Shown here piece by piece: positions 3,843-20,644 of a stretch of 55,733 nt of DNA. The notes beneath the pieces are model-generated. The model was not told the DNA's origin, ran no database searches, and worked only from the letters and a program-made list of their open reading frames with translations. The first letter of the stretch is position 1; every line of letters begins with the position of its first letter. The DNA is taken from positions 1-55,733 of the forward strand of contig JABAZC010000069.1 of the NCBI GenBank assembly GCA_018608625.1, written 5' to 3'. The translations under genes and the position numbers were made by a program. Source of the DNA: Flavobacteriaceae bacterium. Lineage in GTDB: Bacteria > Bacteroidota > Bacteroidia > Flavobacteriales > Flavobacteriaceae.

Positions 3843-5546
3843 ATGAAAATTAGATTTGTGACATCTCAATTAAAATTGTTTTTCCTTAATATATGTATGT
3901 TGGCTGCTTTTAATAGCGCTAATGCACAGGACCTTCAGTTAATTATTGCAAGTAGTAATACTCAAGAAACGAAGGCAATCAATACAATAGGATACTCAAA
4001 ATTATTTGATAACTACAAAACATTATTACTGGAAATAGAGCGCTTTAAAAATGTAGCTTACAGGCTAGGATATATAGAAGCTACCGTTCAGTCTACAACA
4101 AAAAATAACTTAAAAACATCCATTCAGCTTAAACTTGGACCAAAGTACGAATCTGTTCAATTATATGCAGACAAAGTGCTTTTTGAACTTTTAGACATCA
4201 AGCCAATAGAAACCACGGATTCCTTAACGTATTATCAAGCCAAAGTATCCGGATTAGAAGTGCTAATGAATCAACTTACAAATTCATTAGCAAGTAAGAG
4301 TTACCCTTTTGCATCCGTTACATTAAACAACATCAAACCCATTAGTAAGAGCATACTAAAAGCTGATCTGCTAGTGGTAACTAAAAAAGCAAGACAGCTT
4401 AATACGGTAGAGATTAAGGGTTATGACAAATTCCCGCGTTCGTTTATAAAACATTTTTTAGGGATTAAAACCAATACTCCTTTTGATCTTAAAGCCATAC
4501 AAACAAAAACTGAAACACTCGATCAACTTAACTTTACCAAACAACTCAGACCTGCAGAAGTTTTATTCACCCAGGATACAACTAGCGTCTATTTGTACTT
4601 ACAAAAAAATAAAAGCAATCGATTTGATGGTTTTATAGGATTTGGTTCTGAAGAGACTACTAGGGATTTAGAACTGAATGGATACTTGTATCTCAATCTA
4701 GTTAACAATTTAAATTATGGAGAGACATTTATACTAAACTATCGCAGTGATGAAAATGATCTAAAAACATTTGAAACCAAACTAACACTCCCCTATTTAT
4801 TCGAGTCCCCCATTGGGAGTGAACTTAAACTAAACATCTTTAAAAAAGATAGCATGTTTACAACAGCCGAACAATCTGTAAACCTATTTTATCAGCTCAA
4901 CCCAAAACAAAGACTGTTTTTAGGTATTCAGACAGCACAATCAAATGCCTTGGATCCAATCGAATCTAGCAATATCGTTGACTACAAAATAAACGCATAT
5001 GAGCTAAGATATACGTATCAAAATCGCACCCCTAAAGACATCTTGTTTCCATTGAAAAGCCAAATGGAAGTGCGCTTCTCTAGAGCTACCCGAAAAACCT
5101 CAACAGCAACTACAAATCAAAGTATATACTTATTGAAAGCATCTCACCAATTTAACCTTAATACATCTAACAGTATTTATATAGCTCTTGACGCGCAAGG
5201 TATAGACTCGAAAAACTACCTATTCAATGAACTCTTACGTTTTGGAGGGATTAGAACCATTCGAGGATTTGAAGAAAACAGCATTAATGCAAGTGCATTT
5301 ATAATGGTTGCTAGCGAATACCGCTTCCGTCTAAGCCCTTCATTATATGTTCACTCAATAATAGATGCAGCCTATTTCAACACCCCCACAAAAATAGACC
5401 AAAAACTAGTAGGAATTGGGCTTGGGTTTGGAGTAGCTACTGAAGCAGGATTGTTAAGGTTCAATATTGCAAATGGACAAGTTGAGAATCAAAACTTCAA
5501 ATTCTCAGATTCTAAAGTCCATCTTAGCTTAACAGCTACATTCTAG
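3843..5546 (+). CDS. BamA/TamA-family outer membrane barrel protein
   Basis: The 567-residue protein begins with a signal peptide cut after about residue 29 (ANAQ). Next comes a region that looks like POTRA-type repeats (for example TVEIKGYDKFPRSFIKHFLG near residues 190-210). The C-terminal half is rich in alternating beta strands and ends in Phe. Near residue 475 the motif LRFGGIRTIRGFEEN corresponds to the loop-6 RGF signature of the Omp85 superfamily. That supports an outer-membrane insertase or translocase, but it is shorter than true BamA and has fewer POTRA domains, so it is a paralogue of unknown substrate. It is divergent from the str operon and precedes the SusCD locus with a 232-nt gap. 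Confidence 0.8.
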   Translation: MKIRFVTSQLKLFFLNICMLAAFNSANAQDLQLIIASSNTQETKAINTIGYSKLFDNYKTLLLEIERFKNVAYRLGYIEATVQSTTKNNLKTSIQLKLGPKYESVQLYADKVLFELLDIKPIETTDSLTYYQAKVSGLEVLMNQLTNSLASKSYPFASVTLNNIKPISKSILKADLLVVTKKARQLNTVEIKGYDKFPRSFIKHFLGIKTNTPFDLKAIQTKTETLDQLNFTKQLRPAEVLFTQDTTSVYLYLQKNKSNRFDGFIGFGSEETTRDLELNGYLYLNLVNNLNYGETFILNYRSDENDLKTFETKLTLPYLFESPIGSELKLNIFKKDSMFTTAEQSVNLFYQLNPKQRLFLGIQTAQSNALDPIESSNIVDYKINAYELRYTYQNRTPKDILFPLKSQMEVRFSRATRKTSTATTNQSIYLLKASHQFNLNTSNSIYIALDAQGIDSKNYLFNELLRFGGIRTIRGFEENSINASAFIMVASEYRFRLSPSLYVHSIIDAAYFNTPTKIDQKLVGIGLGFGVATEAGLLRFNIANGQVENQNFKFSDSKVHLSLTATF

Positions 5547-5719
5547 CCAAAAAACAGCACATCGTACAAAAATTAATGAATTAAACTTAAACAATAGGTA
5601 TAATGACATATTCGCAATAAACGATGTCAATACAGATGCAAATCGTAAGAATTCGCAACAATACGAGTTAATTGACTAGAAATTAGTTTAATAAAATTAT
5701 ATATTTTTAAAACAATTTG

Positions 5720-5750
5720 TTGGTTATTAGAGTTTTTATTAGCACATTTG
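5720..5750 (+). promoter_or_regulatory. Promoter of the SusCD operon (TTG-N20-CACATTTG)
   Basis: A TTG at 5720-5722 (with an overlapping TTTG just upstream at 5716) is followed by 20 nt and CACATTTG, one mismatch from TAnnTTTG. The predicted leader is about 22 nt, A-rich and without a Shine-Dalgarno sequence, which is normal for Bacteroidota. The remaining upstream gap (5547-5715) shows nothing else I can name. Confidence 0.6.
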
Positions 5751-5778
5751 CGAAGACTAATTCAAATAAATAACAAAA

Positions 5779-8700
5779 ATGAAAACAAAGTTTAGTGTTA
5801 TACTTACGCTTTTATTAGCGTTTGTGGTGCAAATTTCTTTTGCACAGGAAAAAAAAGTTTCAGGTACAGTCTCTGACGATAATGGTTTACCTCTACCGGG
5901 GTCAACAATCATAATCAAAGGAACTTCATCTGGAGTTTCTACAGATTTTGACGGAAACTACTCAATTAATGCAAATGTTGGAGATGTTCTAACATTCAAT
6001 TATGTAGGTTACGCAGATCAGGACCAAACTGTTGGAAGTTCAAACGTAATTAACGTAACAATGCTAGCTGATACTTCTCTAGAAGAAGTTATTGTGATAG
6101 GTTACGGTACAACTACTAAAGAAGCGTTTGTAGGAACTGCAACAACAATTGAAACAGAAAATATAACTGCTAAGGCAAACGGGAATTTTTCTCAAGCTCT
6201 TAGAGGTGAAGTTGCTGGTGTACAAGTTACAACAGGTTCAGGTGCTCCTGGATCAGATGCAACTATTCGTATCCGTGGAACAGGTTCAGTTAATGGTAAT
6301 AGAGCACCACTTTATGTAGTGGATGGAGCTCCTTACGCTAGTGACATTTCCGCTATCAACCCCTCTGACATTGAAAACATTACTATACTTAAGGATGCCG
6401 CAGCAACATCTATTTATGGATCTAGAGGTTCAAATGGTGTAATTCTTGTGACAACAAAGACAGGTAAATCAGGAGTTTCTAATATTTCAGTTGATGTAAG
6501 AACTAGTATTAACAGTCTTATGTTACCTCAGTATTCAGTTATAACCTCACCAGAAGAATATATCGAAACTACTTACTCTTCGTTAGTAAACAAAGGAAGA
6601 TTATTAGGTGAAGCAAATCCAAATGGATGGGCTAGTGATAACTTATACGGTACAACTGAAGGGATAAACAACGCATACAATATATGGGATGTTCCAGGAA
6701 ATCAATTGATAAATCAATCAACTGGTAAATTTAACTCTGGTATTGGCCGCAGATGGACACCAACTCTTTGGTCAGATGCAGCTTTTGGAACTGGAGTAAG
6801 ACAGGAAGCTAATATCCAATTTAGTGGAGGAAACGACAAGACTCAATATGCAGCCTCTTTTGGTTACTTAGATGACGAAGGTTATACAACTAACTCTGGG
6901 TATACAAGATATTCTACTCGAATTAATTTACAACATAAACCAAAAGAATGGTTAAGAGTTGGAGCAAATATAGCATTTACTGGTGCTCAGTATAATAATT
7001 CTTCTGGTTCAGAAGGATCAGCTGGATCATCAGGAAACATATTTGCGTTGACATCAACTACACCTTCAATTTATGATGTTTTCTTAAGAGACGCAGAAGG
7101 CACCCTAGTTGCAGATCCAATTTTTGGTGGTAATCAATATGATTACGGTAATGAATTTGGACGAAGAGCTTGGAATGCCACTAATGGTATTGCAGATTCT
7201 AGATATGACGTGTCAAGACAAAATTCAATAACAGTATTAGGTAACTTTAACATAGGAATTGATTTTACAGATTGGTTATCGCTTGATATCCGTTACAGTG
7301 GACAATTAGGCGACACTGATAGTGCCTCAAGAGGAAACCCTTACTACGGAGGTAATGCTGGAAGTGGTTTCTTATCTAAGTCGCTTAGTCAAAACATGAA
7401 CCAAAACATGAATCAGATATTGAGATTCAACAAAAGTTATGGAGAACTTAATGTTAGTGCACTTATAGGTCACGAATCAAATGAAAATAGATTCAAAAAC
7501 ATGAATGCTGCTGCTCAGAACGCGATCCTCCCTAATAATTTGGATTTGGATCAGTATACTATTCCTTTTGGAAGAGCTGGGTCATATTCTACAGCTTCAA
7601 CGCTTGAAAGTTATTTAGCGTCAGTTGATGTTAACTATATGGGCAAATATTACATGAATTTATCTGGAAGACGTGATGGTTCATCTCGATTCATCAAAAA
7701 CAAATGGGATTCATTTGGTGCTGTTGGATTAGGATGGGTTATGTCTAAAGAAAATTTCTTTCCACAAGATTCTTTCGTTGATTACCTAAAAATAAAGGGT
7801 AGTTATGGAATTGCTGGAGATCAAGGTACTAACCTACAGTACGGATGGCAAATATTTTTCATCAACCAAACACCAGACGGATCGTATTCATTTACACAAA
7901 GCTCAACTTTAGCTAACCCGGATTTAACATGGGAAAAGAAAGTTAAGTCTCAAATTGGTTTTGAATCAATCTTGTTTGATGGTAAAGTTACTCTTGACGT
8001 AGATTATTTTAGTGATAATACTAAAAATCTATTTTTCAATCAATCATTACCTGGATCTAGTGGTTCTACAATCATCCAATATAATGATGGTGTATTATTA
8101 AATAGTGGTATTGAAATTAATACTAATATTAGCTTAGTTCAAACTGAAGACTTTAGTATGTCATTAAATGTTAATGGTTCGAAGCTTTATAACGAACTGG
8201 TTGAAATGCCAACTGATTACTTCACTGGTGAAGATAAGATACTTGATGGAAATCGTTCTGCAGGAAAATCATTATATGATTTTTACATGAGAGAATGGGC
8301 GGGAGTAAATCCAGCGACTGGTCAAGCTATGTATAATTTATATTATGATGATATGAATAATGATGGGATATTTAACTCTGGTGATTCTGCTATTAATAGT
8401 ATGACTCTATACATGGATGAGTTTCCTGGTGCTAATGTACAGAAAACAACAACTGAAACTTATTCAGATGCTACTCAAAAATATGTAGGTAAAAACAATC
8501 AACCTGATTTTGCAGGTGGATTTAGACTAAACGCAGCTTATAAAAACTTCGATATTAGTGCACAATTTACATATAGTATTGGTGGTTATGTATATGACAA
8601 TGGATACAGAACTATTATGAATAACAGAAGTCTTGCTGGAAGTGATAACTTTCACACTGATGCTAGAAATGCATGGAAACAACCAGGAGATATCACAAAT

Positions 8701-8997
8701 GTTCCAAGGTTATCCGCAGGTTATAACACAGACGTTCAGCATAACTCCACTTCTACTCGTTTCCTAACTAAAGCTGATTACTTGTCGTTAAACAACGTGA
8801 GATTAGGATACACTTTACCAAGCGATGCTGTGAGTAAAGCAAAACTAGAAAATGTAAGCTTTTACGTTTCTGGAGATAACTTAATGATGTTAAGTGCTAG
8901 ACAAGGTTTAAATCCACAAACTTTAATTAGTTCTTCAGGATCAGGTATATATATGCCAATGACGACTGTTAGTATTGGTACAAAAATTCAATTTTAA
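5779..8997 (+). CDS. SusC/RagA-family TonB-dependent outer membrane transporter
   Basis: This 1072-residue outer-membrane transporter imports a large nutrient using TonB energy, with SusD as its lid. The signal peptide ends at about residue 22 (SFAQ). It is followed by a carboxypeptidase-regulatory-like domain (about 26-95: VSGTVSDDNGLPLPGSTI), then a TonB-box-like EVIVIGYGT, the plug domain (about 115-225, with VDGAPYASDISAINPSDIEN and the YGSRGSNGVILVTTK end) and a long barrel ending in Phe. There is no N-terminal STN signalling domain, so it is unlikely to talk to an anti-sigma factor directly. SusD follows after 12 nt. Confidence 0.95.
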   Translation: MKTKFSVILTLLLAFVVQISFAQEKKVSGTVSDDNGLPLPGSTIIIKGTSSGVSTDFDGNYSINANVGDVLTFNYVGYADQDQTVGSSNVINVTMLADTSLEEVIVIGYGTTTKEAFVGTATTIETENITAKANGNFSQALRGEVAGVQVTTGSGAPGSDATIRIRGTGSVNGNRAPLYVVDGAPYASDISAINPSDIENITILKDAAATSIYGSRGSNGVILVTTKTGKSGVSNISVDVRTSINSLMLPQYSVITSPEEYIETTYSSLVNKGRLLGEANPNGWASDNLYGTTEGINNAYNIWDVPGNQLINQSTGKFNSGIGRRWTPTLWSDAAFGTGVRQEANIQFSGGNDKTQYAASFGYLDDEGYTTNSGYTRYSTRINLQHKPKEWLRVGANIAFTGAQYNNSSGSEGSAGSSGNIFALTSTTPSIYDVFLRDAEGTLVADPIFGGNQYDYGNEFGRRAWNATNGIADSRYDVSRQNSITVLGNFNIGIDFTDWLSLDIRYSGQLGDTDSASRGNPYYGGNAGSGFLSKSLSQNMNQNMNQILRFNKSYGELNVSALIGHESNENRFKNMNAAAQNAILPNNLDLDQYTIPFGRAGSYSTASTLESYLASVDVNYMGKYYMNLSGRRDGSSRFIKNKWDSFGAVGLGWVMSKENFFPQDSFVDYLKIKGSYGIAGDQGTNLQYGWQIFFINQTPDGSYSFTQSSTLANPDLTWEKKVKSQIGFESILFDGKVTLDVDYFSDNTKNLFFNQSLPGSSGSTIIQYNDGVLLNSGIEINTNISLVQTEDFSMSLNVNGSKLYNELVEMPTDYFTGEDKILDGNRSAGKSLYDFYMREWAGVNPATGQAMYNLYYDDMNNDGIFNSGDSAINSMTLYMDEFPGANVQKTTTETYSDATQKYVGKNNQPDFAGGFRLNAAYKNFDISAQFTYSIGGYVYDNGYRTIMNNRSLAGSDNFHTDARNAWKQPGDITNVPRLSAGYNTDVQHNSTSTRFLTKADYLSLNNVRLGYTLPSDAVSKAKLENVSFYVSGDNLMMLSARQGLNPQTLISSSGSGIYMPMTTVSIGTKIQF

Positions 8998-9009
8998 AAA
9001 AACAAAAAG

Positions 9010-10491
9010 ATGAAAAGAAATTTAATTTATTCAATTTTACTTACATCCCTAGCATTTGTAGGGTGTAGTGAGGAGTTTTTAGATCCGCAGAGAAACACTA
9101 GTGTTCTTACTGCTGAAGATCTTTCTGGATTCTCTGACATAAATCCTGCATTAGTTGAAGGAACACTTGAAGGTATCGGGAGTTTCATGATTCAAGATTT
9201 CGGAGTTACTGGAAGTAGACACTATGACTTCGGTCAAAAAGGTGTTGATATCTGGACAGATATCGTTTCTGGAGATATGGCTTTATCAGGAAGTGCATAT
9301 GGATGGTATAACAATACAGCAAACTTAGTTAGTACTGTTGATTTCACTCGTGAAGAAAACAATATTATTTGGGAGTATTATTATAAAATTGTGAACCTAG
9401 CTAATACAGTAATTCAAACTACCGGTGGTAACGCTGGTCAGCCAGAAACTGCTGCAGCTAGAAAGATAATGGGACAGGCTAAAGCTTCTAGAGCTTATGC
9501 TTACTATTACCTAGCACAACTTTTCCAAAACAGCTATGATCCTGCACAACCAATATTACCTTACTATGATGGTGAACTTACTGAAACAGCTAAAGTTCCT
9601 GCATCACAGATATATGCATTGGTAGTTAGTGATTTAACTGAAGCTGTCGAATTATTAGACGGTTATGCTAGACCTGACAAGAGTAAAATTGACAAAACAG
9701 TTGCTCAAGGTCTTTTAGCATATGTTCACGCTGGTATGGGCAACTTCGCAGAAGCTAAAGTTATGGCTGACGCTGTAATAGCTAGTGGATACCCTGTAAC
9801 TACTGCTGGTGAGCTTGCTTACCCAGGAGCTGGATCAGGATTTAACAATGTAAACACTCCGTCATGGGTTTGGGGATTTGACTTGACTGAAGAGTTAGGA
9901 CACCAATTAATTGACTGGTGGGGACAAATGGATCCATTTACATATAGCTATGCATGGGCAGGAGATCACAAGTCTATAGATGACGGTCTTTATGCACAAA
10001 TTGCTGCAGATGATATCAGAAAAACTCAATTTGGGACTGGAACAGCTGCATTACAAGCGATTGGTAAATTCTTCGATCCCAATAGAGTAATTGGGGGACA
10101 ATACATCATTACTACTGATTTAGTATTTATGAGAGTTGAAGAGTTTTACTTATTAAGTGCTGAAAGTGCTGCAAGAACAGGAAATGAAGCAGCTGCTAAA
10201 GCGACTATGATTGAAATGTTAGATAACAGAATGCCAAATGCTGCTAGTACAGTAAATGCTCTTTCTGGGACTGCATTACAAGAATTTATTTACTTACAAA
10301 CCAGAGTAGAGCTTTGGGGAGAAGGTAAAACTTATTTTGCTATGAAGCGTAATCAAGCTACTGTAACTAGAGGGACAAATCACGTTTACCGTGCTGGAGA
10401 AACATTTGTATGGGATTCAGATGAAATGTCATTTCAAATACCAGAAAGCGAGATTAATAACAACCCTAGCATAAGCGAACAAAATAATTAA
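9010..10491 (+). CDS. SusD/RagB-family nutrient-binding lipoprotein
   Basis: This 493-residue lipoprotein is the expected partner of the SusC transporter just upstream and would form its surface-exposed substrate-binding lid. A lipobox (LAFVGC) places the lipidated Cys at residue 19. The next residues SEEFLD are acidic, as in surface-export signals described for Bacteroidota lipoproteins. The body contains SusD-type TPR-like helices (KASRAYAYYYLAQLFQ near 155-170) and the conserved end where a helix of the form RVELWGEGKTYFAMKR precedes the final segment. No catalytic domain is visible. The substrate cannot be read from sequence. Confidence 0.93.
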   Translation: MKRNLIYSILLTSLAFVGCSEEFLDPQRNTSVLTAEDLSGFSDINPALVEGTLEGIGSFMIQDFGVTGSRHYDFGQKGVDIWTDIVSGDMALSGSAYGWYNNTANLVSTVDFTREENNIIWEYYYKIVNLANTVIQTTGGNAGQPETAAARKIMGQAKASRAYAYYYLAQLFQNSYDPAQPILPYYDGELTETAKVPASQIYALVVSDLTEAVELLDGYARPDKSKIDKTVAQGLLAYVHAGMGNFAEAKVMADAVIASGYPVTTAGELAYPGAGSGFNNVNTPSWVWGFDLTEELGHQLIDWWGQMDPFTYSYAWAGDHKSIDDGLYAQIAADDIRKTQFGTGTAALQAIGKFFDPNRVIGGQYIITTDLVFMRVEEFYLLSAESAARTGNEAAAKATMIEMLDNRMPNAASTVNALSGTALQEFIYLQTRVELWGEGKTYFAMKRNQATVTRGTNHVYRAGETFVWDSDEMSFQIPESEINNNPSISEQNN

Positions 10492-11328: not shown

Positions 11329-11363
11329 AAAAAACCGGTATTTTCTAAATACCGGTTTTTTTT
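11329..11363 (+). terminator. Intrinsic terminator of the SusCD-lipoprotein operon
   Basis: A 10-bp perfect stem (ACCGGTATTT / AAATACCGGT) with a 3-nt loop is followed by seven T and preceded by a run of A. It separates the three-gene uptake operon from the protease gene. Confidence 0.92.
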
Positions 11364-11403
11364 GTTCAAAAATCACTTTCATAATAAAATTAAAATCAAG
11401 TTA

Positions 11404-13401
11404 ATGAAGATAAAATTACTATTATTAACCTTACTATCTACATATGTATTGAATGCCCAAACAGCTGAAGAACGCGATAAGATGTTACAGACGTACGATC
11501 TTGAAAAAGTCAATAATTATATAGATGAATTAGAAGTTGGGGAAGCTAAATTAAAGCAAATGCTTGATGAGTATGTAGCATTAAATCCAGAAGTGAGAAG
11601 AGAATATTATGAGAATGGAAAACATTATGTCTTATATAATATTCTAGGAAATAAACCAATTTATATAACTACTACTAACCTAAAATCTGCTATTGCTACA
11701 CAAACAATTGCTCTAAGCCCAGGGGGTGATTTAGGGCTTGATCTTGAAGGTGAAGGTTATACTATCGGGATATGGGAATTGGACTATCCTCTTGCAACAC
11801 ATCAAGAGTTTATGAATAGTGATGGTACATCTAGAGTTTCTACAATAGATACAAATAATCCAAATGTTGGTGGTGGGCACGCCTCACATGTAGCTGGGAC
11901 ACTTGGTGCTAGTGGGGTAAGTGGTTCAGCTAAAGGAATGGCGCCCAAATCTTATATAGTAGCTGGTGATGTTGCAGGACATAAAACTGAAACTGCAAAC
12001 GAACATTTAAACTCTGGAATGCTCGTGTCTAACCATTCTTATGGAATTGCTACAGATAGTGATACAGCTAGTTGGCGCTTTGGAAGTTATTCTTCTTTTA
12101 ACTACGTAGGTAGTTCTAATGACGGAGCAAGGGCTTGGGATCAAATCCTTTATAATACTCCATATTATACAAAAGTTGAGTCGGCTGGAAATGAGGGTAC
12201 TTTCTCATATACAGGTGGATTAGGTCCTGGACTTGACAAACTAACTGGATCTTCAGTTTGTAAAAACAATATAGTTGTGGCTAATGCTAATGTTATAGTC
12301 AATATACCTCCTTTTGGTAACCCTGCTATTACAGGTGCTGCAATAGCTTCATCGAGTAGTCAAGGTCCAACTGATGATGGAAGAATAAAACCAGACATCA
12401 CTGGAAGAGGAACTAATGTATACTCATGTGATGACAGCACAGAATCATCATATGGAAATTCAACTGGAACATCTATGTCTGGTCCAGGAGTAGCAGGAAG
12501 TTTATTGTTACTGCAAGAACATTATAATAATCTAAATAGTTCTTTTATGAGGTCTTCAACTCTTAAAGGCCTTGTATGTCATACAGCTACAGACGATGCA
12601 GAAAATCCAAATGTATCAGCAATATCATACCCTGGTCCTGACCCTTTTTGGGGATGGGGTCTTTTGAATGCAAAATTTGCAGCACAAACAATAATAGATG
12701 CTCAAACAAATGCGGCAATTGTTGAAGAAAAAATACTCAATAATGGAGAAACCTATTCATTTACAGTAAACGTATCAGGTTCTGAGAAATTAATGGCTAC
12801 CATTTGTTGGACTGATTTAGCAGGACAAACACAAAACGGAATACTTAACAGTACTACCCCTGCTCTTGTAAATGACTTAGATATTCGAATAACTGACAGT
12901 GATAATAACGAATATCTTCCTTGGAAGTTAGACCTATCTAACCTACCATACGCAATAAAAGGGGATAATATCGTAGATAATATTGAACGTGTTGAAGTAG
13001 ACCTTCCAACAACAGGGCAATATACTATCACAATCTCTCATAAAGGCTTAATACCAGGAACTACGCCTGGATCGGTAGGAATTCAAGAATATTCACTGAT
13101 AGTTACAGGATCAGACTTGACTACTACACTTTCAAATGGAGAAAATGAATTGTCAGACTTTTTAGTATGGCCAAATCCTGCCAAGGAAATGATTAATTAT
13201 CAATTTGCATCTCAATCCAATCAAACTTGTTTAGTTAAGCTTATTGACTTGCAAGGGAGAGTTGTGTATTCTCAAAATGTTTTGGGAGGTTCTGCAAGTA
13301 TTCAAGGAACAATAAATACCTCCAGTTATTCAAAAGGAGTTTATTTCCTTAGTTTAAATCAAGGCAATCAAAAAACATATAAAAAAGTGTTGCTACAGTA
13401 A
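11404..13401 (+). CDS. Secreted subtilisin-like (S8) serine protease with T9SS sorting domain
   Basis: From the ATG at 11404 the protein has 665 residues and a clean signal peptide (to about residue 19, LNAQ). A TTG 42 nt upstream lies inside the terminator and is not a plausible start. The S8 core shows His159 (GGGHASHVAGT), an oxyanion Asn in ESAGNEG and Ser357 (GTSMSGPG). At the usual Asp position the sequence reads IWELD, i.e. Glu125, with Asp127 two residues later. A beta domain (about 450-570) follows. The last 80 residues (VWPNPAKEMINYQF ... KKVLLQ) are a type A T9SS C-terminal domain, so the enzyme should be exported by the type IX system and be cell-attached or released. It may feed peptides to the SusCD system upstream. 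Confidence 0.9.
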   Translation: MKIKLLLLTLLSTYVLNAQTAEERDKMLQTYDLEKVNNYIDELEVGEAKLKQMLDEYVALNPEVRREYYENGKHYVLYNILGNKPIYITTTNLKSAIATQTIALSPGGDLGLDLEGEGYTIGIWELDYPLATHQEFMNSDGTSRVSTIDTNNPNVGGGHASHVAGTLGASGVSGSAKGMAPKSYIVAGDVAGHKTETANEHLNSGMLVSNHSYGIATDSDTASWRFGSYSSFNYVGSSNDGARAWDQILYNTPYYTKVESAGNEGTFSYTGGLGPGLDKLTGSSVCKNNIVVANANVIVNIPPFGNPAITGAAIASSSSQGPTDDGRIKPDITGRGTNVYSCDDSTESSYGNSTGTSMSGPGVAGSLLLLQEHYNNLNSSFMRSSTLKGLVCHTATDDAENPNVSAISYPGPDPFWGWGLLNAKFAAQTIIDAQTNAAIVEEKILNNGETYSFTVNVSGSEKLMATICWTDLAGQTQNGILNSTTPALVNDLDIRITDSDNNEYLPWKLDLSNLPYAIKGDNIVDNIERVEVDLPTTGQYTITISHKGLIPGTTPGSVGIQEYSLIVTGSDLTTTLSNGENELSDFLVWPNPAKEMINYQFASQSNQTCLVKLIDLQGRVVYSQNVLGGSASIQGTINTSSYSKGVYFLSLNQGNQKTYKKVLLQ

Positions 13402-17172: not shown

Positions 17173-17862
17173 TTATATATGATTTTTTAACTCTAGTAAA
17201 TGGTCTATTCCGATAATGTTAGGAGCCAGCACTTCTTTGTGGTAGTTAAAACAAATCGCATCCATCCCTATATTGAGCGCACCAAGTATATCGGCTTCCA
17301 GATTATCTCCAATCATTAAGCTGTTTGCTAAGGTTGCATTAGCCATATGTAAAGCGTGGTGGAAGATTTTAGGATTTGGCTTCTTAACTCCAACCATTTC
17401 TGAATTGGTAACAGTTAAAAAATAGTGATCAATATTTGATTGGTTAAGTTTTGCTTGTTGCGCTTCTTTAAATCCATTGGTTATTATATGCAACTTATAC
17501 TTAGCTTGTAAATACTCTAAAAGCTCAATAGTTCCATCGAATAAGTGATTAAACGTAGAGAGATATGTAATGTAATCATCGGAAAGCTTGTGGACTACTC
17601 CGGCAGAGACGTCTATTCCTAAAGCCTTAAAAGTGTCATTGAGTCGTGCAAATTTCAGGTTCTTTTTGTCTACTTTATCTTCTCTGTAAAGCTTCCAATA
17701 ATTAAAATTAATTGGCACATAAACCTCTAAAAAAGCATTTAAATCAATTTTTAGGTCGTTCAATGCAAATATCTTCTCAAATGTTAAGGCTGAGTTTTTA
17801 TCAAAATCCCATAGTGTATGATCTAGGTCGAAAAAAATATGTTCTTTATTTTGAAATTTCAT
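17173..17862 (-). CDS. HAD-family noncanonical pyrimidine nucleotidase (YjjG-like)
   Basis: A 229-residue HAD hydrolase of the YjjG type, which removes phosphate from pyrimidine nucleotides, including noncanonical ones. Motif I is FFDLDHTLWDFD (nucleophile Asp), motif II the Thr in IITNGF, motif III the Lys in GVKKPNPKIF and motif IV GDNLEADILGA. An alpha-helical cap lies between residues 20 and 85. The start overlaps the end of the DUF7033 gene by 17 nt, so the two are probably translationally coupled. Confidence 0.85.
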   Translation of the reverse strand: MKFQNKEHIFFDLDHTLWDFDKNSALTFEKIFALNDLKIDLNAFLEVYVPINFNYWKLYREDKVDKKNLKFARLNDTFKALGIDVSAGVVHKLSDDYITYLSTFNHLFDGTIELLEYLQAKYKLHIITNGFKEAQQAKLNQSNIDHYFLTVTNSEMVGVKKPNPKIFHHALHMANATLANSLMIGDNLEADILGALNIGMDAICFNYHKEVLAPNIIGIDHLLELKNHI

Positions 17863-19153
17863 TGGTGGAATCTAGAATAATATTAAACAATGATTTGAAA
17901 TCTACCCATCTTGGGATTGAGCTGAAAGCATAATTATGAAATATAAAGGTAAATAAGCCGTTCACTTTTTGAACTTCTGAAATCGCCTTTAACAAAGTTT
18001 CTTTTTTATCAAGAAAAGAAGCGTGCTTAAGCAACGCAAAATCCATTAGTTGATAAGGATAAATCTTTAAAGGAGTTTGAATTTCATAATCTAAATCATA
18101 AAACAAAAAAGGAGTACAGGTCCCAGCTCTAAAGCCAATAGTATCCGCATAGCCCATCGTGTAATCTGAATAGATTTCTAAGTCTATATAATTCCTGTAT
18201 GTGGTTGGTAAATTAACTTTTGAAAAAGACGAACGCGCCGCAGTTGTGACAGTGTTAATAACACCATCCATTAAACGTTTCTCCGATTTTAAAATAGCCA
18301 TAGAATCTAAAGCCACATAGGAAGCTTTAATTCCAACATTACAGTAATCTGCAACCGACTTAATTAAAGAACTAAATTGTTTTTTATTAATGCTGTTATT
18401 TTTATCATAGGTTGTAAAGTCGCCTATTAAGAAAAATACATTAAATCTAGTGCGACTTACTTTCTGACGATTGATAATCCATTTAAAGTTATCATAGGGA
18501 TCTTTTTTAAAACCAAACAAAACCGAAAAACGATTGTAAATAAATTTAAATCGAAAAGAAAACATATCAGACAAAGTCTCTCCAAAAGTTCTTAATAACC
18601 CTTTATTTCTAAAGTAGTATGCTACTGGCACATCAATCACGGGGTTTAAACAAAATTTACGCGTTTCAAATTCATAGTTGGGGAACTTATTTTTTAAAGC
18701 ATCTTTAAATTTATAGGCCCAAATATCAATCACAGGTTGATGTAAAAAATGATGCTTGAAAGCTAAACTTTCTTCTTTTGTAAAACGCCCATAAATATCT
18801 TTAACATGGGGTAAGTATTCTTCGTACCGACTCAAGAGATAAAAGGAGGCTGAAAATATATCAAAGGGAATTTGACTCTTTTCTCCACAACTAAAAAAAC
18901 ATTTTGTGTTCCCCCAGCCCTGTACATTCAACTCTAAATCTGACAAGCCTTGTTCAAATAAAAGACCATTACTTTTAACAAAAAATTCGCTGCCAAGCGG
19001 TTGTGGTCCGTAAGATATTTTGAGGCTGTCATGTGCAATAAACTCTTCAATTACACTAGTGAAAGAAACGGGAATATTTAGGATGCGCGTACAAATTTGT
19101 TTAAAAACAAATTTGAGTCTCGGAGTTATTTTAGAGGTATAAATTAGTAGCAT
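17846..19153 (-). CDS. DUF7033-type polysaccharide deacetylase-like protein
   Basis: This 435-residue protein resembles flavobacterial proteins with an N-terminal DUF7033 domain and a C-terminal NodB-like deacetylase fold. Segments supporting this are FDIFSASFYLLSRYEEYLPH (about 100-119), NPVIDVPVAYYF with a candidate metal-binding Asp, a region GIKASYVALDS, and FRAGTCTPFLFYDLD near residue 345. The canonical NodB HxxxH metal motif is not obvious to me, so enzyme activity is uncertain. The start codon overlaps 10 nt of the radC relic, and the end overlaps yjjG by 17 nt. A cell-surface glycan role is inferred from the family only. Confidence 0.7.
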   Translation of the reverse strand: MLLIYTSKITPRLKFVFKQICTRILNIPVSFTSVIEEFIAHDSLKISYGPQPLGSEFFVKSNGLLFEQGLSDLELNVQGWGNTKCFFSCGEKSQIPFDIFSASFYLLSRYEEYLPHVKDIYGRFTKEESLAFKHHFLHQPVIDIWAYKFKDALKNKFPNYEFETRKFCLNPVIDVPVAYYFRNKGLLRTFGETLSDMFSFRFKFIYNRFSVLFGFKKDPYDNFKWIINRQKVSRTRFNVFFLIGDFTTYDKNNSINKKQFSSLIKSVADYCNVGIKASYVALDSMAILKSEKRLMDGVINTVTTAARSSFSKVNLPTTYRNYIDLEIYSDYTMGYADTIGFRAGTCTPFLFYDLDYEIQTPLKIYPYQLMDFALLKHASFLDKKETLLKAISEVQKVNGLFTFIFHNYAFSSIPRWVDFKSLFNIILDSTNEISK

Positions 19154-19263
19154 TGTAATACGCTTTCATCGGAAAATCTAAAATAGGACTTTTCTGCGAC
19201 AATTAAATGGTCTAGATCCTTAATGTCTAAACTTTCAGTAGCTAATTTTAATTTCTGAGAGGC
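19144..19263 (-). pseudogene. radC: Relic of radC: C-terminal 39 codons only
   Basis: Between mpl and the DUF7033 gene a minus-strand frame without internal stop reads QKLKLATESLDIKDLDHL and continues IVAEKSYFRFSDESVLQCY before a TAA. This is the recognisable C-terminal tail of RadC (consensus like LDIxVLDHLIIxxxxYxSFxxE). An in-frame TAA precedes the remnant at 19264-19266. There is no start codon and no JAB catalytic motif (HxHxxSxDxxxT) in the 126 nt available. The remnant stop overlaps the next gene's start by 10 nt, as expected if radC once preceded it. The gene has lost roughly five sixths of its length by an internal deletion ending just after mpl. Confidence 0.88.
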
Positions 19264-19279
19264 TTACTTGTTCGATGCA

Positions 19280-20644
19280 TCAACTTGGATTAATAACTAA
19301 TTCTTTTATCGTATCGAGGTTTAATCCTCCGTAACTTCCAGAGCTCATTAATACAACCGCTTTATCAGCATACTCAAGCGAGGTTATGTACTGTTTGAAA
19401 TCCTCTGGATTATTGTAAATTAGTAAATTATCTCGATTAAAAGCTAACTCAATTTGATCTTTACTAACCATTTCTAATTTTTTAATTTCTACTGAATGTG
19501 GCGAATAAAAAACAACCGCTTGATCGGCGGCATCAAGAGTCCCATTGTATTGCTTAAGAAACTCTGCATTTAGGCTGCTGTAAGTATGTAGCTCTAAACA
19601 AGCAACAAGCGTTCGGTCTGGGTATTGTGCTTTGATAGCTTCCGTAGTGGCTTTGACCTTACTTGGTGAATGTGCGAAGTCCTTATAAACAACACAATTT
19701 GTGTTTGAAGCTAACTTCTCTAGACGTTTACTAGCGCCTGTAAAGCTTGAAATAGCTTCAAAAAAATCAGCTTCATCAACACCCATTTGCTGACAAATCC
19801 ATTTAGACCCTGCGAGATTATTTAAGTTATGAGCTCCAAATACTTCAAGAGGTAATGGTCCTTCTTCCGTATCTAAATACGTGACGCCTGAATCTATTGT
19901 GTATTCCGGAGTATGGTATGGAAATTTACGAATTTGATTCTCACTTTGTTCTACAATATTTTTAACATTCTTATCTTCTGTATTATAAGAAATACTCCCT
20001 CCTACAGTGATACTATCAACAAAAACCTGAAATTGTTCAAGGTAATTTTCAAATGTTGGAAACACATTAATATGGTCCCAAGCAATACCACTCAAAAGTG
20101 CAATATTAGGCTGGTATAAATGAAATTTTGGACGGCGGTCTATTGGAGAACTTAAATACTCATCTCCTTCTAAAACAATGAAATCTGCCTCATCCGTAAG
20201 CTTAACCATGACGTCAAAACCATCTAACTGTGCACCAACCATATAGTCTACTTCAATATCATGGTAATTTAGAACGTGTAATATCATTGCTGTAATCGTT
20301 GTTTTTCCATGACTCCCTCCAATAACAACACGTGTTTTATGTTTGGATTGTTCATACAAAAACTCTGGATATGAATATATTTTCAAACCAAGATCTTGTG
20401 ACTTTAAGAGTTCTGGATTGTCTTTTTTGGCATGCATACCAAGTACGACTGCATCTATTTCTTTCGTGATTTTTTCTGGATACCACCCAAAACTAGCAGG
20501 CAAAAGCCCAGACGTACTTAATCGTGACTTTGAAGGCTCAAAAACAACGTCATCACTCCCAGTCACTTTCATTCCTTTATTGTAAAGTGCTAACGCTAAA
20601 TTATGCATAGCTGCACCGCCAATGGCTATAAAATGTACATTCAT
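19280..20644 (-). CDS. mpl: UDP-N-acetylmuramate:L-Ala-gamma-D-Glu-meso-DAP ligase (Mpl)
   Basis: This 454-residue cytoplasmic Mur-family ligase recycles the murein tripeptide by joining it to UDP-MurNAc with ATP. The N-terminal nucleotide domain begins HFIAIGGAAMHNLA, and the ATP-binding P-loop is GGSHGKTTITAM near residues 108-119. The carbamate/metal region includes EGDEYLSSPIDRRPKF, a hallmark that separates Mpl from MurC. The C-terminal domain has YKDFAHSPSKVKAT. It is preceded by a 214-nt spacer after obgE, and followed by the radC relic. Confidence 0.94.
   Translation of the reverse strand: MNVHFIAIGGAAMHNLALALYNKGMKVTGSDDVVFEPSKSRLSTSGLLPASFGWYPEKITKEIDAVVLGMHAKKDNPELLKSQDLGLKIYSYPEFLYEQSKHKTRVVIGGSHGKTTITAMILHVLNYHDIEVDYMVGAQLDGFDVMVKLTDEADFIVLEGDEYLSSPIDRRPKFHLYQPNIALLSGIAWDHINVFPTFENYLEQFQVFVDSITVGGSISYNTEDKNVKNIVEQSENQIRKFPYHTPEYTIDSGVTYLDTEEGPLPLEVFGAHNLNNLAGSKWICQQMGVDEADFFEAISSFTGASKRLEKLASNTNCVVYKDFAHSPSKVKATTEAIKAQYPDRTLVACLELHTYSSLNAEFLKQYNGTLDAADQAVVFYSPHSVEIKKLEMVSKDQIELAFNRDNLLIYNNPEDFKQYITSLEYADKAVVLMSSGSYGGLNLDTIKELVINPS

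Follow-up and report, generated by a model that had tools for sequence, protein, structure and literature searches.

Truncated pseudogenes, or gene remnants, are a feature of reduced bacterial genomes. The locus described here is compared with such remnants and with the RadC family (PF04002, TIGR00608 and NF000642; JAB/JAMM fold), whose JAMM ligands we take to be H-x-H-x7-S-x2-D. To our knowledge, the role of RadC is unsettled. According to the accessible part of one report, a radC mutant of V. cholerae transforms like the wild type, and transformation of S. pneumoniae and H. influenzae is likewise said not to require RadC (PMC6237807). A literature search, which omits most subscription journals, found no paper on the loss of radC in Flavobacteriaceae.

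We analyzed a stretch of 55,733 nucleotides (hereafter, the window) from a Flavobacteriaceae bacterium whose assembly measures 1.9 Mb in 92 contigs and is 90.7% complete. On the minus strand of the window, a spacer of 126 nt separates mpl from a gene encoding a DUF7033 protein. Sequence comparisons indicate, with a probability of about 0.92 for the explanation as a whole, that this spacer is a dead 3' remnant of radC. The relic is like the RadC family in its C-terminal end sequence and in its genomic position, and unlike it in having no catalytic core, N-terminal part or start codon and in scoring, as a fragment, 21.9 bits against a cut-off of 22.1. From the truncated pseudogenes of reduced genomes it shows no essential difference: it is syntenic and lesioned, its decay is graded among relatives, the sister genome is intact, and the genome is small. 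Its one unusual point, set against such pseudogenes, concerns the intact gene, whose strongly conserved 3' block overlaps with the sequence upstream of the neighbouring gene. Overall, the remnant is an ordinary and modest one, and it is well supported. The features of the locus are as follows.

17846..19153, minus strand: DUF7033 gene, 435 aa, intact (PF23019, E = 6.2e-36)
19144..19146, minus strand: present end (TAA) of the relic frame, within the DUF7033 gene, whose ATG is at 19151-19153
19153..19155, minus strand: position of the ancestral radC stop; TAA within TAATG in relatives, CAA in the window
19154..19279, minus strand: radC relic, mpl-DUF7033 intergenic, approximately the last 42 radC codons (from nhmmer, the search with the RadC protein of the sister genome G010, and PF04002)
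19165..19203, minus strand: 39-nt block, possible cis element, -50 to -12 from the DUF7033 ATG (from synonymous-site conservation of the intact radC counterparts)
19178..19185, minus strand: TATTTTAG, promoter-like, -32 to -25, one mismatch from the Bacteroidota -7 box TAHHTTTG
19264..19266, minus strand: in-frame stop TAA; CAA (Gln) in the intact sister G010
19280..20644, minus strand: mpl (Mur ligase family; the murC and mpl models match, both below their cut-offs), with its own stop TGA kept

Identity and coding capacity of the remnant

The minus strand of 19144-19263 holds a 39-residue stop-to-stop frame, ASQKLKLATESLDIKDLDHLIVAEKSYFRFSDESVLQCY. The first-pass annotation had described it as an uninterrupted tail in the 126-nt spacer, preceded by an in-frame stop and corresponding to the C-terminal end of RadC. 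The description of the frame is correct, with the TAA at 19264-19266 just before the tail, and so is the assignment, for which the lack of a profile match had been named beforehand as a possible refutation. The 39 residues match positions 89-119 of PF04002 (E = 1.7e-4, 21.9 bits) as well as the RadC models NF000642 and TIGR00608 (E = 2.3e-4 and 5.6e-4, respectively). A DNA profile of the 13 intact radC genes of the genus (nhmmer) gives a single match in the window, at 19154-19289 (E = 1.9e-28), and the final 10 bases of this alignment lie inside mpl. When the RadC protein of G010 is compared with the whole genome at E <= 1, its sole match is the remnant itself, at 19156-19284 (E = 1.8e-11), over residues 188-230 with 70% identity and one internal TAA. 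A second radC, for which a full-genome search had been proposed at the outset, was found neither with the G010 protein nor with the PF04002 profile, which has no match at E <= 0.001 in the whole assembly. Against the remnant explanation, a second copy could lie in the missing part of this 92-contig, 90.7%-complete assembly.

Compared with G010, the window lacks approximately 605 nt, from just past the mpl stop to about radC codon 188. The missing portion comprises the start codon, the N-terminal part and the catalytic core, in agreement with the early proposal that the deletion had taken the JAB metal-binding core: the JAMM ligands, which read HNHPSGSLVASVSD in G010, are gone with it. RadC is kept only from about residue 188, with A-S-N in place of the V-S-D of G010 (Asn for the last Asp). 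A functional RadC would need a start codon, an open frame of some 230 residues and a score above the Pfam cut-off; the window has 39 residues from stop to stop, with a score just below it. Significant radC homology at the syntenic position is accompanied by disabling lesions, since about 605 nt are missing, a TAA interrupts the tail and the stop is lost; Val to Asp and Ser to Arg changes add to these. Relaxed constraint on the protein is also apparent, albeit from few codons. Out of 19 tail residues that are invariant in the 15 radC-bearing loci of the genus, 2 are changed in the window, 4 in the related genome G012 and 13 in the related genome G008, including 3 by alignment gaps. No RadC product would be made from such a locus.

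The 39-codon frame is open and its sequence is still RadC-like, as would be expected if it encoded a functional short peptide. We regard this as extremely improbable, because the frame contains no ATG, GTG or TTG (its first table-11 start is an ATT), its last 34 codons hold one stop in G012 and three in G008, and the catalytic residues are gone.

The stop of the relic frame overlaps the DUF7033 ATG by 10 nt, which the first-pass annotation had taken as the coupling of an intact ancestor. The arithmetic is right, but the coupling is not ancestral: all 15 intact or frameshifted radC copies of the genus end in TAATG and thus overlap DUF7033 by 1 nt. In the window TAA has become CAA (the junction reads CAATG), and the relic frame runs on to a later stop. 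Judged against these relatives, the 10-nt overlap is therefore derived. DUF7033 would now be initiated without a ribosome arriving from radC.

The locus in relatives and the age of the deletion

We compared the locus across 18 genomes of the window's genus and 11 genomes of a second genus, that of G061. In the window's genus, a PF04002 match lies directly before DUF7033 in 15 of the 18 genomes and is absent in the window's genome, G012 and G008. By reading frame, the 18 loci divide into 13 with intact radC, 2 with frameshifted copies (G014 and G005a) and 3 relics. The distance between mpl and DUF7033 is 126 nt in the window, 114 nt in G012 and 187 nt in G008, and 727-743 nt in the other 15. 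The expected order mpl-radC-DUF7033 with an intact radC is thus found in the relatives (13 of 18 loci), and the prospect that close relatives would lack radC here, which would have counted against a loss, is contradicted by the 15 genomes that carry it in place.

DUF7033 is present in 10 of the 11 genomes of the second genus, where radC is intact at six loci, frameshifted in G420, decayed or cut in G421 and G415, and erased in G416. The radC of G421 has decayed at full length, with 10 stops among the final 230 codons of its frame, and that of G415 is cut to approximately its last 85 residues. Since these two genomes are sisters (support 100, one gene), decay probably came before deletion in their lineage. 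Because sequencing errors may account for the frameshifts in G014, G420 and G005a, these were left out of the loss count; mpl of G014 also matches only in part. Taken together, the two related genera display stages in the decay of one gene at one place, from intact copies through frameshifted ones and one decayed along its whole length to truncated and erased ones.

Three further observations concern individual genomes. In G416 (L186:2790-2860, minus strand), radC is wholly erased and the mpl stop forms TAATG with the DUF7033 start, an overlap of 1 nt as radC formerly had. In G012 (L038:4340-4365), Mpl ends in YAEFFK as compared with SNPS in G010; this end seems to be read partly from radC-derived DNA, so that the deletion would also have altered the Mpl C-terminus. 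Assembly G005 (8% contamination) carries a second copy of the locus, of the second genus (L055 / G005:C62), which is probably a contaminating contig because its last 34 RadC residues are identical to those of G414.

To place the loss in time, we used a tree of 27 genes (alignment of 30,240 nt, in which some taxa are without some genes). The window, G012 and G008 form one clade, with G010, which has an intact radC, and the outgroups outside (100/100). An AU test, run with 1000 replicates, below the program's advice, rejected all 8 of the tested topologies in which this clade is broken up and left 2 of the 3 in which it is kept. The four neighbouring genes alone give only weak resolution among the window, G012, G008 and G010. 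On the phylogenetic evidence of the 27 genes, the loss of radC predates the split of the three genomes and is not recent, contrary to the first impression of a recent-looking loss. The tail of the window does look fresh; of the three branches, that of the window is the shortest (0.053, compared with 0.106 for G012 and 0.164 for G008). Tail decay increases from the window to G012 to G008, which is also the order of the branch lengths. Within this three-genome group, the DUF7033 proteins are 87-90% identical to that of the window.

Homology to radC begins at profile position 561 in the window and 564 in G012, and the two junctions differ on the mpl side. G008 gives no match to the radC DNA profile at E <= 10, and its putative relic was identified by position and alignment alone. 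A radC-less clade with an intact sister and a near-identical breakpoint on the radC side makes a single ancestral deletion the simplest explanation, and one deletion in the common ancestor of the window, G012 and G008 fits these sequences best. Three independent losses would account for the different spacer lengths and mpl-side junctions, and radC has been lost repeatedly elsewhere. We nevertheless consider them unlikely, given that the three genomes form one clade and that the radC-side breakpoints of the window and G012 lie within a few nucleotides of each other. The window's assembly is fragmented, so the deletion might also be an assembly error in a species with an intact radC. This is very unlikely: two further genomes are without radC at this position and have decayed remnants of their own, and a misjoin would not produce the lesions of the window's tail (the internal TAA, the lost stop and the two substitutions). 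As to how the ancestral deletion arose, the word AATCCAAGT at the end of mpl resembles radC at the junction, and radC of G004 has AATCCAAGT there. This likeness suggests that the deletion may have occurred by slippage between near-identical short words, namely AATCCAAGT at the end of mpl and AATCCAAGT or a close variant in radC.

Elsewhere in the window, the genes at 3843-10488 match the neighbouring regions of relatives at 61-65%, at 30-32% or not at all, unlike most of the window, and this stretch is possibly a variable region.

Synonymous constraint in the radC tail and a possible cis element

At the end of radC, intact copies from the two genera hardly vary, and this extends to third codon positions. 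We measured synonymous identity between 11 of the 13 intact sequences of the first genus and the 6 intact sequences of the second. The best 8 of 982 13-codon windows all fall in the radC tail (best excess 0.35, mean 0.03, standard deviation 0.07). These 982 windows derive from DUF7033 (396), the second half of mpl (208), HAD (196) and radC (182); obg entered the comparison and yielded none. The same measure was applied to loci of other genera, taken from a set of 56. Where radC abuts DUF7033 (23 loci), the tail is above average, at ranks 9-39 of 220; the effect is moderate and the best windows lie outside the tail. The effect is absent from the 24 loci in which at least 60 nt separate radC from DUF7033, the tail there being below average (ranks 149-197). 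Four loci with gaps of 26-47 nt belong to neither group. Five more, L104, L106, L113, L120 and L152, were omitted from the ranks and kept in the comparison of promoter boxes described below; L104 and L106 also appear as G422 and G265.

TAHHTTTG is given as the Bacteroidota -7 element in the accessible part of PMC6847099. It occurs exactly in 12 of the 24 spacers of at least 60 nt (2.6 expected from shuffles), so that in those genera DUF7033 probably has, by this sequence signature, a promoter of its own. All 12 exact boxes, in spacers among L082-L176, are at -22 to -44 before DUF7033. A box with one mismatch is found in all 28 abutting loci (12.6 expected), at -32 or -33 in 21 of them, and an exact box in none of the 28. 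Across the two genera, all 27 loci that retain radC or a remnant of it, the five relics among them, carry TATTTTAG; this conservation is post hoc because the register was picked after inspection of the data. The median leader given for F. psychrophilum in the accessible part of PMC9723704 is 24 bp, with which transcription starting about 20 nt ahead of the DUF7033 ATG would agree.

One may ask whether the remnant has been retained because it serves some function. The 3' end of radC could double as a promoter, initiation or other cis element for DUF7033, with deletions that reach it selected against and purifying selection preserving it after the loss of radC. We hold this only tentatively, as somewhat less probable than its negation. 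The concentration of the best synonymous windows in the tail speaks for it, as do the conservation of the tail where radC abuts DUF7033 and its absence behind spacers of at least 60 nt, the one-mismatch boxes in every abutting locus, and the constancy of TATTTTAG. Other observations speak against it. No abutting locus has an exact box, the Tyr-Phe-Ser motif of the protein itself dictates TAYTTTAG, and the register of TATTTTAG was chosen after seeing the data. G416 keeps DUF7033 even though its radC is wholly erased. The last 50 nt might decay more slowly as part of the DUF7033 initiation or promoter region, which is less certain than the single deletion or the lack of a RadC product. Among the three relics of the window's clade, 14 of 117 positions changed in the block and 26 of 123 in the flanks (P-value = 0.059, with the block defined from codon conservation). 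No slower decay of the block was detected in the second genus (2/39 in the block and 3/41 outside it in G421; 3/39 and 2/41 in G415).

Several related ideas were abandoned. A clearer slowdown, 12/117 in the block against 20/75 just upstream, came from post hoc bins and was superseded by the test above. Deletions do not always spare the tail: only two independent ones do, those of the window's clade and of G415, and G416 lost everything. An RNA hairpin in the conserved block is unsupported. RNAalifold on five sequences pairs two invariant halves, yet the stability is not unusual against synonymous-codon controls in any of 17 intact sequences (lowest fraction 0.11), and a search against Rfam gave no match. 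A first promoter register, TTG-N19-TAGTTTTG, was weakened because its second half is broken in G006, G015, G421, the window and G008, and because F. johnsoniae hardly ever has G at the relevant position of the -7 box, as stated in the accessible part of PMC6847099. Before the window's genes at large, the paired -33/-7 pattern is not clearly enriched (1 of 10, 0.7 expected); the -7 box alone occurs in 12 of 81 (5.6 expected). A sigma-70 scan returned nothing useful.

Loss of radC and persistence of DUF7033 in the family

Among family genomes of at least 85% completeness, PF04002 is found in 274 of 299. The view of radC as a widely conserved gene thus stands, but its loss recurs in small genomes and is less surprising than had been implied. 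Of the 25 genomes without radC, 20 were listed, and 17 of those listed measure at most 2.2 Mb; 23 genomes of at most 2.2 Mb have radC (sizes tallied by eye). The absence of radC is associated with small genome size even if the 5 unlisted genomes are all large (P-value = 2e-11, to be read with the caveat that related genomes are not independent and that small assemblies may be less complete).

DUF7033 is matched in 11 of the 19 other radC-less genomes listed. Gene order was compared over the DUF7033 loci of named genomes, 80 in all. Among the 52 nearest (L056-L106 and L111), radC or a remnant precedes DUF7033 in 51, the exception being L058, which is that of G008; the same holds in 2 of the 28 distant loci (L113 and L120). 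DUF7033 itself has kept an open frame in each of the three genomes of the window's genus that lack radC (two residues shorter in G012), and on this sequence evidence DUF7033 seems not to need RadC.

The DUF7033 protein has a weak match to NF053580 (VimE; E = 8.3e-38, 130 bits against a cut-off of 440) and is a distant relative of this deacetylase. A large protease-like protein is encoded near the DUF7033 gene, at 11362-13401; by eye, its C-terminus resembles what we take to be a type IX secretion sorting domain. The nearby DUF7033 protein, in turn, is distantly related to VimE, which the accessible part of PMC7468200 places in the sugar pathway for type IX secretion anchors.

In this family, the loss of radC is tied to small genomes. 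Although radC and DUF7033 directly adjoin in many members, DUF7033 is maintained when RadC is gone. If the radC 3' end does act as a cis element, the tail of a gene would outlive the gene because its neighbour needs it, and the relic would be a surviving regulatory element carved from a dead gene.
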